Assembly: GCA_017417045.1 (NCBI GenBank)
Contig: JAFPZZ010000031.1
Location: 1 to 64,000, forward strand
Source of the DNA: Bacillota bacterium
Lineage (GTDB): Bacteria > Bacillota > Clostridia > Peptostreptococcales > Anaerovoracaceae
Length of the DNA: 64,000 bases
Reading direction: 5' to 3'
A program made the translations under genes and the position numbers. Below are positions 5,180 to 9,462 of this stretch, piece by piece (position 1 is the stretch's first letter; each line of letters starts with the position of its first letter). The notes beneath the pieces are model-generated. The model saw only the letters and a list, made by a program, of their open reading frames with translations. It made no database searches and was not told the DNA's origin.

Positions 5180-6400
5180 CTACTGCAGATCCTTCTGATA
5201 TATGATCTCTATCTCCTGCTCCGCGAGAGCCGCCTCTATGAGCGCCTCGCAGTCGAGCTTGGACTCCGAGGCGAGAATGCGTTCGAGTCTCGGTTTCGTC
5301 ACGGGATGCCTCGGAAGGAAGACGGTGCAGCAGTCCTCGTAGGGCTGTATGGATACGTCGTATGTTCCTATCTCCCTGGCCATATCCATGATATCGACCT
5401 TGTCCATGGCTATGAGCGGACGCATCACGGGCATGCTCACCGCCTGATCGGTGACGACCAGCGCTTCCGCGGTCTGACTCGCGACCTGACCCAGGCTCTC
5501 GCCGGTTATCAGCATCATGCTCTCCTCTTCCCTCGCGACCCTCTCGGCTATCTTCATCATGAAGCGCCTCACGAGTATGGTGGTCTCCTCCTCAGGGCAG
5601 TTCTGGACGATCTGTTCCTGAATCGGAAGGAGGTTTATGGAATGCATGCGTATCCTTCCGCAGTAGCCCGCGAGTATTGAGGCAAGCTCCTTGACCTTTT
5701 CGTGAGCCCTCTCCGAGGTGTAGGGGAAGGAGTGGAAGTGCACCGCGTCTATATACATGCCCCTGTGCGACATCATGAAGGCCGCAACGGGAGAATCTAT
5801 GCCTCCGGAAAGCAGGACGAGGCCCTTGCCGTTGGTCCCCAGAGGAAGCCCGCCGAAGCCGCGGACCTTGCCCTCGTATACGTAAGCCCTGCCCCTTCTG
5901 ATATTTACGAATATGGTCGCGTCGGGCTCGTGCACGTCAACCTTCAGGACCTTGCAGCCCTTGAGCACGTAAGCTCCCATGCGCCTGGCTATCATCGGAG
6001 ATTCTATGGGGAAGCTCTTGTCCGCGCGCCTCGCGTCGATCTTGAAGGTCTTTATGCCCCTCTTTTCTATGAGCCCCATGGCGTACTCCGCCGCGGCCCT
6101 GCCTGTCTCGTCAATGGCCTGCTCGGCGTCCATGTCCTCTATGACGACCTCGAGCGCGGGGCTGATGGAATCAACTCCGAACACCCTGCCGACGCGCTTT
6201 AATACGTCCTCGTCGGGGACGTCTGTACCTGTCCTTACGAAGATCAGGCCGTCGTTTCTCTCAACGGCGGTGCCCTCGTAGGGCTTTAGGAACTTTTTTA
6301 TGCGCTGGACGAGCATCCTCTCGAAATACGACTTGTTGTCTCCCTTGAGGGCGCTCTCGCCGCAGCGCACTATGAATATCTTTTCATCTCTGTTTATCAC
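5180..6400 (-). CDS. thiI: ThiI, tRNA 4-thiouridine sulfurtransferase
   Basis: A 406-residue ThiI without the extra rhodanese domain of enterobacteria. It adenylates U8 of tRNA and adds sulfur taken from a cysteine desulfurase; in many bacteria it also serves thiazole synthesis. The order is a ferredoxin-like region with RCGESALKGDNKSYFE, a THUMP domain (about 60-165), then the PP-loop SGGIDS at 198-203 and GESLGQVASQT. CEDCC-like residues appear in PYEDCCTVFLP. The start is GTG at 6400-6398: AGAAGG precedes it, and it lies 5 bases after the stop of the cysteine desulfurase gene, its natural sulfur donor. A longer upstream frame merely overlaps that gene. Confidence 0.93.
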   Translation of the reverse strand: MINRDEKIFIVRCGESALKGDNKSYFERMLVQRIKKFLKPYEGTAVERNDGLIFVRTGTDVPDEDVLKRVGRVFGVDSISPALEVVIEDMDAEQAIDETGRAAAEYAMGLIEKRGIKTFKIDARRADKSFPIESPMIARRMGAYVLKGCKVLKVDVHEPDATIFVNIRRGRAYVYEGKVRGFGGLPLGTNGKGLVLLSGGIDSPVAAFMMSHRGMYIDAVHFHSFPYTSERAHEKVKELASILAGYCGRIRMHSINLLPIQEQIVQNCPEEETTILVRRFMMKIAERVAREEESMMLITGESLGQVASQTAEALVVTDQAVSMPVMRPLIAMDKVDIMDMAREIGTYDVSIQPYEDCCTVFLPRHPVTKPRLERILASESKLDCEALIEAALAEQEIEIIYQKDLQ

Positions 6401-6405
6401 TTCTT

Positions 6406-7563
6406 CTACCTTCTGAACGATCTGGTGAGCTTTCTCTGGGACTTTACGGCCTCTACGAGCTTCTCCAGCACGTAATCTATCTCTTCTTCGGTGTTCTCCT
6501 CCGAGAGGCTGAACCTGACCGCTCCCTGTATCTCTTCCTTGCTCAGGCCCATCGCGCTGAGCACGTGGCTGCCCTTGCTGTGAGACGAGCAGGCAGAGCC
6601 CGTCGAGACGCATATCCCGTCGGTGTCAAGGGCGTGCAGCAGCACTTCTCCCCTGCAGCCGAGAAAGCTCACGTTCAGCAGGGAGCAGACCGAATCCTCG
6701 GGAGTGTTGATCCTGACGTCCTCTATGGACGAGAGTATCCCGGCTTTGAGCCTGTCCTTTAGGGCCTGCATGCGAGAGATCCTCTCCGGCAGCTCGGCCT
6801 TTATGAGCTCCGCCGCCTTCCCCATGCCTGCAATGCCCGGTACGTTCTCGGTACCGGATCTGAAGCCGGACTCCTGCCCGCCGCCGTGCATGAACACGGG
6901 GACGTGCAGCCCGCTCTTTACATATAGGGCTCCAACCCCCTTTGGCCCGTGGACCTTGTGCGCGGATACGCTGAGCATATCCACTCCCAGAGTGCGCACG
7001 TCAAGGGGCAGCTTGCCCCAGCTCTGCACGGCGTCGCTGTGAAGGACGGCCCCGCTCCCGTGGCTGGTCATTACGTCCCTGATCTTCCTGACAGGCATTA
7101 TGGCGCCCGACTCGTTGTTCACGTGCATGACGGAGACGAGCAATGTATCGTCCGTGAGGGCTGCCTCGAAGTCCGAGACAGATACGGCTCCGTCCCTTCC
7201 CACGGGAAGATAGACGATCTCGGCGCCCTGCCTCTCAAGCCACTTGCAGCACTCCAGAACGGCGGGATGCTCCACAGCCGTGGTTATGACGCGCCTTCCC
7301 TGCTTTTTCCTCGACTCCCAGATGCCCTTGAGCGCGGTGTTGTCGCTCTCGGTGCCTCCGGAGGTGAAGAAGAGCTCTCTGCTCCCGCAGCCAAGACTTG
7401 AGGTTGCCGCCTCGCGGGCGGCCTTGACTGTCTTCTCCGCAGAGAGACCCAGCCTGTACATGGAGGAGGGATTGCCGAAGCCCGTCTCCAGGGCTTCGTT
7501 CATGGCCTCTATGACCTCGCGGCGGGGCTTAGTCGTGGCGCTGTTGTCCAGATATACAAACAT
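6406..7563 (-). CDS. Cysteine desulfurase (NifS/IscS-like)
   Basis: A 385-residue PLP enzyme that turns cysteine into alanine and an enzyme-bound persulfide. Conserved points are YLDNSATTKP at the N-terminus, TSGGTESDN at about 68, the PLP lysine in SVSAHKVHGPKG (K203), the FRSGTEN segment, and the persulfide cysteine C325 in STGSACSSHSKG. The short SACSSH active loop resembles the NifS-like group that partners ThiI. The ATG at 7563 was chosen because AGAGG precedes it and the protein then begins MFVYLDNSATTKP. It is co-transcribed with thiI. A 211-base candidate structured RNA lies directly upstream and could be its leader. Confidence 0.92.
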   Translation of the reverse strand: MFVYLDNSATTKPRREVIEAMNEALETGFGNPSSMYRLGLSAEKTVKAAREAATSSLGCGSRELFFTSGGTESDNTALKGIWESRKKQGRRVITTAVEHPAVLECCKWLERQGAEIVYLPVGRDGAVSVSDFEAALTDDTLLVSVMHVNNESGAIMPVRKIRDVMTSHGSGAVLHSDAVQSWGKLPLDVRTLGVDMLSVSAHKVHGPKGVGALYVKSGLHVPVFMHGGGQESGFRSGTENVPGIAGMGKAAELIKAELPERISRMQALKDRLKAGILSSIEDVRINTPEDSVCSLLNVSFLGCRGEVLLHALDTDGICVSTGSACSSHSKGSHVLSAMGLSKEEIQGAVRFSLSEENTEEEIDYVLEKLVEAVKSQRKLTRSFRR

Positions 7564-7594
7564 GTTGTGCCTCTTGTGTATAGTATAAAATATA

Positions 7595-7805
7595 CGCTCC
7601 AACAGTCCGTATGACGGACACGTCTACGCGCTTCAGCTAAAGCATCTGACCTACATCTTTTCGCGCTAAGCGCTCACAGTGTTAGGTCATCAACGCTGAG
7701 CCTCTTCGTTCATCGTTTTCAGCCCTCATTTTTCGGGCTTCAAACGCTGCACTCGAGTCTCGACTACGCTCCGACAAAGTGTTCGTCACACGGACTGCAG
7801 GAGCG
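7595..7805 (-). ncRNA. Candidate structured RNA upstream of the cysteine desulfurase-thiI operon
   Basis: The ends 7595-7616 and 7784-7805 are inverted copies over 22 bases. In the minus-strand RNA all but one position (U-U) pair, two of them as G-U; read on the plus strand these become mismatches. The stem continues inward as ACAC/GUGU and GUC/GAC. Inside are a hairpin GUUU-GA-AGCCC...GGGCU-GA-AAAC with facing GA steps, a 7-bp stem UGACCUA/UAGGUCA, and a small hairpin GCUU/AAGC. The first arm CGCUCC could also pair with an internal GGAGCG, so two folds are possible. No known riboswitch consensus (TPP, SAM, T-box) was recognised. It may be a leader or a separate small RNA. Confidence 0.42.
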
Positions 7806-7849
7806 CTTTATTACTACAGGCTCTACTCCAATATTTATTCTATAAACGA

Positions 7850-7868
7850 GCCCGCAGTTGCTGCGGGC
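7850..7868 (-). terminator. Terminator after rny
   Basis: GCCCGCAG (7850-7857) pairs with CTGCGGGC (7861-7868) around a 3-base loop. On the minus strand TCGTTTAT follows, a modest T-run. Confidence 0.6.
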
Positions 7869-7917
7869 CCGTGTTTCCGTCGTTTTGCTGTCTGTCCGGC
7901 GCTGCCGGCAAAAGCTC

Positions 7918-9462
7918 CTACCTCGCGTAGTCGACAGCCCTGATCTCCCTGATGACGTTGACCTTGATCTGTCCGGGATACTCGAGCTCGCTCTCGATCT
8001 TCTGCGAGATCTCCCTCGCGAGCAGCTCGATGGAATCGTCAGAGACCTGATCCGGCTTGGCGATGATCCTGATCTCTCTTCCCGCCTGGATGGCGTAAGA
8101 GGTCTCGACTCCTGGAGTGGTGTTCGCGATCTCTTCGAGTTTCTGGAGACGCTTGATGTAGGTGTCGAGGGTCTCTCTCCTGGCTCCGGGTCTTGCGGCG
8201 GAAAGCGCGTCGGCTGCCGCTATGAGCACGGCTTCGGGGCTCTTCGCCTCGTAATCTCCGTGGTGAGCGGCCATGGCGTCGATGACAGCCTGGCTCTCCT
8301 TGTACTTCTTGAGCACGCCTATGCCGATATCGACGTGAGTGCCCTGGATCTCGTGGTCGAGAGCCTTGCCGATGTCGTGGAGCAGGCCCGCGCGCTGAGC
8401 GAGCTGGATATCGAAGCCGAGCTCACCGGCCATAAGGCCAGCCAGATGCGCGACCTCCATGGAGTGCTTGAGGACGTTCTGCCCGTAGCTGGTGCGGTAT
8501 TTGAGTCGGCCGAGCAGCTTGACGAGCTCGGGATGCAGGTTGTGGATGCCGAGCTCGAAGGTGGCGGACTCGCCTTCGTTCTTGATGATCGCGTTGACTT
8601 CCTTCTCGGCTTTTTCGACCATCTCCTCGATCCTGGCGGGATGTATCCTGCCGTCGACGATGAGCTTCTCAAGGGCGAGTCTTGCGATCTCTCTCCTGAC
8701 GGGGTCGAAGCCCGAGAGTATGACCGCCTCGGGGGTATCGTCTATGATGAGATCCACTCCCGTGGCCTGCTCTATAGCCCTGATGTTCCTTCCCTCGCGG
8801 CCTATTATCCTGCCCTTCATCTCATCGTTGGGCAGGGGGACGACGGATACCGTGGTCTCAGCCACGTGGTCCGCCGCGCAGCGCTGTATCGCGCCTGTGA
8901 TGATCTCCTTGGCCTGCCTGTCGGCGTCTTCCTTGGCCTTGGATTCGATCTCCTTGATCATGACCGAGGCTTCGTGCCTGATGTCCTGCTCAAGGCTGTC
9001 GAGAAGCATCTGCTTCGCTTCTTCAGCGGTGTAGCCGGAGATCTTCTCCAGCTCCTCTATCTGCTGCTGTCTGAAGTTTTCGAGCTCTGCCTCCTTCTTT
9101 TCGATGTTGTGGAGCTTGTTTGTGATCTGCTCCTCTTTCTTTTCGATGTTCTCGGTCTTTCTGTCCAGAGAGTTCTCCTTCTGTATCAGACGGTTCTCCG
9201 TCTTCTTGATCTCCTCTCTGCGTTCGCGGATATCCTTCTCCGCTTCGTTCTTGATCTGGTGTGCTTCGTGTCTGGCATCGGCCAGGGTCTCTTTTCTGAT
9301 CTGTTCAGAGCGGTTCTCCGCGTCCAGAATAAGATTGCGCGCCTGAGTCTCGGCGCTTCCGATCATTTTTTCAGCATTGTTCTTTCTGATGATGTAACCG
9401 GCTAATATTCCGACGAGCAGAGCCACGAGCACTAAGACAGCGCACAGCCATCCTGGTAACAT
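7918..9462 (-). CDS. rny: Ribonuclease Y
   Basis: A 514-residue RNase Y, the membrane-anchored endoribonuclease that starts mRNA decay in Firmicutes. The order is an N-terminal membrane helix ([21 protein letters not shown], about 5-25), a long charged coiled coil (about 30-200), a KH RNA-binding domain with [22 protein letters not shown], and an HD domain with [13 protein letters not shown] and [12 protein letters not shown]. The C-terminal motif ends [17 protein letters not shown] precedes the ATG. It has its own promoter about 130 bases upstream and its own terminator, so it is a single-gene unit. The length is normal. Confidence 0.97.

Follow-up and report, generated by a model that had tools for sequence, protein, structure and literature searches.

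An intergenic hairpin ahead of a cysteine desulfurase-thiI operon is probably one copy of a dispersed palindromic repeat family in Clostridia

REPINs and MITEs keep their ends, and a transposase is thought to read those ends. Several described systems share features with the element reported here. The YPAL/RU-2 repeat of Yersinia is likewise short (~168 bp), contains internal inverted repeats and is not A+T-rich, its targets span or flank dyad symmetry, sister species have empty and filled sites, and it possibly influences upstream transcripts; YPAL furthermore generates target duplications of 3-26 bp and has a contiguous open reading frame (PMC2229807). Rickettsia palindromic elements (RPEs) are dispersed long stem-loops of 105-146 bp (PMC2229807), while REPINs and BIMEs, which go together with RAYT, are non-autonomous, extragenic and hairpin-forming, with compensatory changes in their hairpins (PMC3116915). 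Small stem-loop inversions of chloroplasts are segments between short inverted repeats that flip between close relatives (PMC8893999). Among structured RNAs, the raiA motif RNA (RF03072) is also clostridial and ~200 nt long. Here we describe an element from a 64,000-nucleotide stretch of a Bacillota genome (the window), which lies between the gene for RNase Y (rny) and a cysteine desulfurase gene.

Fold and classification of the window element

The position of the element and its location on the minus strand, as proposed in an earlier sequence-only reading, were confirmed (Table 1). The minus-strand RNA, read from 7805 to 7595, has a minimum free energy of -100.5 kcal/mol compared to -64.6 ± 4.1 for 200 shuffled sequences (z = -8.8), none of which equalled it, whereas the plus strand gives a weaker fold (-82.9, z = -7.0). 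Folding is thus far more stable than that of shuffled sequence, and the strand asymmetry claimed in the same reading is borne out. The inverted ends, described there as failing at a single U-U pair and otherwise deviating by G-U pairs, form 18 Watson-Crick pairs, two G-U pairs and one U-U opposition over the terminal 21 bases per end; also confirmed were the 7-bp stem, the GGAGCG inside the element and the hairpin whose GA steps face each other.

Table 1. Features of the window element and its surroundings.
Feature	Positions	Strand	Basis
Whole element, copy C6w, including extra domain	7595..7805	-	Fold z -8.8; 15 own-genome blastn matches; model R1 122.6 bits
Outer stem P1, 5' arm CGCTCCTGCAGTCCGTGTGAC, mostly unrelated to P1 of other copies	7785..7805	-	Copy comparison, arm pairing
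Conserved core, 5' part: P2, UUU bulge, GGA loop, UAG...GAGACUC, apical hairpin, GAGGCUCAGCGU	7693..7784	-	Alignment A1, pair counts, cmsearch alignment
Extra 58-nt domain TGATGACCTAACAC...GTAGGTCAGATGCTTTAGCT, after GCGU, in only 4 of 12 copies	7635..7692	-	Alignment A1, cmsearch alignment
Conserved core, 3' part GAAGCGCGTAGACGTGTCC	7616..7634	-	Alignment A1, cmsearch alignment
Outer stem P1, 3' arm GTCATACGGACTGTTGGAGCG	7595..7615	-	Copy comparison, arm pairing
RNase Y (rny), upstream gene, context	7918..9462	-	Pfam RNase_Y_N, KH, HD
Terminator-like hairpin of rny, ahead of element	~7845-7870		Sequence
Cysteine desulfurase (aminotransferase class V), downstream gene, outside element	6406..7563	-	Pfam PF00266
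ThiI-containing ORF, next downstream, outside element	5180..6613	-	Pfam PF02568, THUMP

Membership in a known clostridial RNA class, for instance raiA, had been suggested as well, and the length of the element is indeed comparable to the 209 positions of the raiA model. However, an Infernal search against Rfam 15 returned nothing at gathering threshold and, up to E = 10, nothing but chance matches outside the core; no Rfam family matched the homologous copies from the second carrier genus, g94, and the raiA model gives the element no score. The genuine raiA RNA of this genome sits elsewhere (G000:C15:16304-16465, L009; 132.5 bits with the raiA model). That the element is raiA or a member of another Rfam family can practically be dismissed. 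A further copy of the repeat described below is situated ~4.5 kb from this raiA locus.

A repeat family with a covarying core

When compared by blastn to its own 1.8-Mb genome (G000), the window element gave 15 matches, read out as 12 near-complete copies and two fragments that adjoin unrelated genes. It thus belongs to a set of similar hairpin-forming sequences at unrelated intergenic sites, as is typical of a dispersed palindromic repeat. A single copy is a hairpin of ~140-210 nt, in which a long outer stem, P1, encloses short stacked helices with purine-rich (GA/GGA) internal loops and an apical hairpin. Common to the copies is a core of ~100 nt, CACTTTGYCGGAGCGTAGTCGAGACTC ... GAGGCTCAGCGTGAAGCGCGGAGGCGTG, which is closed by P1; GGA/GNA and GA/GA steps represent the conserved loops of the family (alignment A1). 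Four copies, including that of the window, carry an extra hairpin domain after GCGU, and one of these, C1a, has no apical hairpin, apparently owing to a deletion between two CAGCGTT repeats. P1 is self-complementary in every copy, with a sequence mostly unrelated from copy to copy. Arms therefore pair within a copy only, and there are no terminal inverted repeats common to all copies as in a classical MITE. A reading as attC sites was provisionally set aside, as attC sites conserve their ends and not their centre, whereas this family conserves its centre. Filled and empty sites, looked over unsystematically, display no obvious target-site duplication.

Two copies were noted for their neighbours. 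One (G000:C28:3075-3198, L232) lies between the terminator of a T-box-like leader and a gene that by eye looks like valyl-tRNA synthetase, and is missing at the corresponding place in G002, G003 and G005; the other (G000:C53:93003-93125, L233) adjoins sequence that by eye resembles the RNase P RNA gene.

Covariation was assessed on the 12 paralogues. Compensatory double changes occur at 18 of the 35 core pairs, and 94.5% of cells are paired. None of 500 shuffles reaches this level, a count that is not a probability since the paralogues are related, and sliding the pairing partners destroys the signal. Compensatory change in the core hence exceeds both shuffled and slid controls, as expected for a structured RNA. 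Two U-G pairs in the core are nearly fixed. Core cells comprise 26 G-U against 6 A-C, a ratio that falls to 7 against 6 once the two near-fixed U-G columns are removed; over 56 copies, P1 comprises 1035 Watson-Crick, 23 G-T, 9 A-C and 32 other pairs (G-T versus A-C, two-sided p = 0.02). As the G-U excess of the core disappears without the two U-G columns, the strand signal comes from those columns together with the conserved purine-rich loops and P1. Together, core covariation and the preference for G-T over A-C in the outer stem support the selection on a minus-strand structure that had been suspected from the letters.

Taxonomic range, neighbouring genes and site turnover

Searching five congeners with model R1 revealed one diverged copy in G002 and none in the four others. 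A motif search across 350 genomes of the family showed enrichment in one other genus, g94, whose homologues keep the core motifs GGAGCG.TAG..GAGACT ... AGGCTC.GCGTGAAGC..CGCGGAG; their basal core is as in G000, while the apical hairpins are different. The pan-model R2 found 8-12 matches each in G295, G298, G300, G302 and G303, fewer in G296, G297 and G299, and none in G294, G301 and G304. Further carrier genera did not emerge when 394 genomes, sampled evenly across the order, were examined under stricter filters. Phage and plasmid records contained no DNA similar to the element, and carriage by phages or plasmids was rejected, as motif matches on viral contigs score at about chance level with the model. 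REP-like sequence, GGGGACGGTTCTGTGTCAC or GGGGACGGTTCTCT, surrounds some copies, among them L192 and others in G303 and the G297 copy L218 (G297:C73:40609), whose arms are complementary at 58 of 59 positions.

Gene neighbours of the copies were called by codon-usage scoring. Within tandem gene pairs, 24 copies are sense and 19 antisense; another 16 lie between converging and 3 between diverging genes. The upstream gene aims at the element in 40 of 62 cases (p = 0.03, orthologous copies uncorrected). Copies are located at gene 3' ends, and their sense preference is weak at most. A- and T-tracts occur at some of the stems (C15, C1a, C1b).

Taken alone, the window copy is co-directional with the cysteine desulfurase-thiI operon and ends ~32 nt ahead of the start codon, which led the sequence-only reading to consider a cis-acting leader that senses sulfur or tRNA status. 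This idea did not hold up: eleven other copies adjoin other genes in the same genome, both orientations occur with some copies antisense to genes, and the orthologous rny-desulfurase spacer of the five congeners measures 65-106 nt (G001 spacing taken from two alignment blocks) and is devoid of the element in every case, which is a strong argument against a sulfur-sensing leader. The conserved association and orientation with a downstream gene that would mark an operon leader or riboswitch were not found. Six of seven g94 genomes likewise have no copy in this spacer, which spans 45-87 nt in them; the sole exception is G297 with a diverged copy in a 469-nt spacer (L016:2852-2934, G297:C63:7330). 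We consider a leader function for this operon extremely improbable; strong folding upstream of an operon does not by itself mark the regulator of that operon. In the corresponding spacer of G002 (L332), a second small hairpin, GGAGAGCCGGACTGAGGCTCTCC, is located past the rny terminator, near the position of the window element.

Seven G000 sites could be found in G002, with aligned flanks mostly 83-91% identical (at C1b, the upstream flank alone aligned), and the element is present at none of them. Where G000 carries P1 and the core at C15, C1b and C39, the G002 spacer shows a plain terminator or hairpin. Presence of the element thus depends on lineage, by gain or by loss, with sites empty in close relatives both among G000 sites compared with congeners and among many g94 sites. 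As part of the mobile-element reading, which we consider likely as a whole, the window copy would have arrived downstream of the rny terminator and ahead of the desulfurase gene, a gene that goes without the element in relatives.

Eleven groups of shared sites were defined in g94. At S1, S4 and S5, the core of G302 lies the other way round from that of G298 with respect to the neighbouring genes, with flanks 93-99% identical, and at S3, S7, S8 and S9 it is not inverted; S2 may be a further case but was left out of the count, as repeats are common to its flanks. Where the core is inverted, P1 differs too, each arm being 62-83% identical, and the inverted copies are 92.5% (S1), 87.9% (S5) and 96.4% (S4) identical. 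At S1 and S5, divergence of the inverted copies exceeds that of the flanks, so replacement by another copy is possible there, while S4 looks like a true inversion. Cores in the same orientation are 100% identical at S6, S7 and S9 with flanks at 85-98%, and 74-92% identical between more distant genomes. Copies are often 98-100% identical where flanks are 85-98% identical, and such strong conservation of orthologous copies would suit a host function no less than a parasite. Empty g94 sites mostly contain neither core nor palindrome. The spacers L252 and L260 are deletion derivatives that kept the P1 arms around GAAGCGCTYCGGAGC with most of the core gone, consistent with loss of the DNA between direct repeats (CGGAGCGG) in the core.

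The conservation of cores beyond that of flanking DNA at several orthologous sites, the covarying core pairs, the conserved purine-rich loops with their nearly fixed U-G pairs, and the near-random orientation to genes would also suit a multi-copy family of small-RNA genes, each with its own promoter, whose stable hairpin RNA binds a host protein or ligand via the GA-loop core irrespective of orientation. We nevertheless regard this as unlikely: no sigma-70 promoter-like site was found in 7540-7940, the copies share nothing outside the core that might hold a promoter, and presence varies within a genus from species to species, with turnover of sites.

Mobilisation and comparison with known systems

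We favour the view, which we hold to be probable, that the window element is one copy of a non-autonomous dispersed palindromic family with a strand-specific structured core that occurs in two genera of one Clostridia family. A conserved centre, variable and yet paired ends, inversion and differing presence in sister species point to a mobile palindrome that would spread via a folded single strand, either DNA or RNA, through a trans-acting activity and partly at terminator hairpins. P1 would be kept paired, and the core flipped, by template switching from one arm to the other or by another copy taking over the site. Once transcribed, P1 would serve as a terminator or 3'-end stabiliser, a role suggested by the A- and T-tracts at C15, C1a and C1b and the plain terminators at matching G002 places, and under which either orientation would be tolerated. 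Read-through of sense and antisense copies would yield different RNAs, which counts against the explanation as a whole. Insertion into existing terminators was rejected as a general rule, since it fits three of the seven G002 sites and not the others; nor do existing palindromes serve as the general target, given that a hairpin is missing from most empty sites.

As to the machinery, no mobilising enzyme came to light. A REPIN-type element that a RAYT (Y1) transposase mobilises would likewise be palindromic, extragenic and dispersed, and Y1 genes are present in G297 and G303, where some copies of the repeat lie within REP-like sequence. Yet the Y1 transposase (PF01797) is absent from G000, G002, G295, G298, G300 and G302 (drafts, 68-98% complete), the holders of most copies, and the conserved part of a REPIN is its ends (PMC3116915), here the centre; we regard this origin as very unlikely. 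Reverse transcriptase (PF00078), which a retron or group II intron derivative should have in its carrier, is present in G298, G303 and G002 and absent from G000, G295, G297, G300 and G302 (drafts, 68-98% complete). Since most carriers lack Y1 and several lack reverse transcriptase, neither of the agents that normally move REPINs and retroelements can account for the family in general, and both were rejected as the driving force. More tentatively, the family may be a new class of mobile hairpin that keeps a structured core, makes its palindrome anew at each site, flips its core and is moved by machinery that reads single strands and is neither Y1 nor reverse transcriptase, a possibility to which we give limited credence.

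The repeat family matches none of the catalogues searched. YPAL/RU-2 is set apart by its description, in which no outer stem varies in every copy (PMC2229807). RPEs possess terminal inverted repeats and insert into reading frames (PMC2229807), whereas the copies described here are intergenic with copy-specific stems. REPINs combine conserved ends with a variable spacer (PMC3116915), the opposite of a conserved centre with variable ends, and most carriers of the family do without the Y1 transposase of RAYT systems. What flips in chloroplasts is ordinary DNA (PMC8893999), and in the present repeat family it is the structured, conserved core. A conserved centre combined with a copy-specific stem is not described for YPAL/RU-2, RPE or REPIN in PMC2229807 and PMC3116915, a comparison within the open-access literature that leaves room for an earlier description. 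Close genomes in which sites are filled, empty, inverted or partly deleted exist for working out how the copies are made. With a middle kept by compensatory change and ends that vary and yet stay paired, the family is the reverse of REPINs and MITEs, and would need either another mode of copying or a mutational process that keeps the stems paired.
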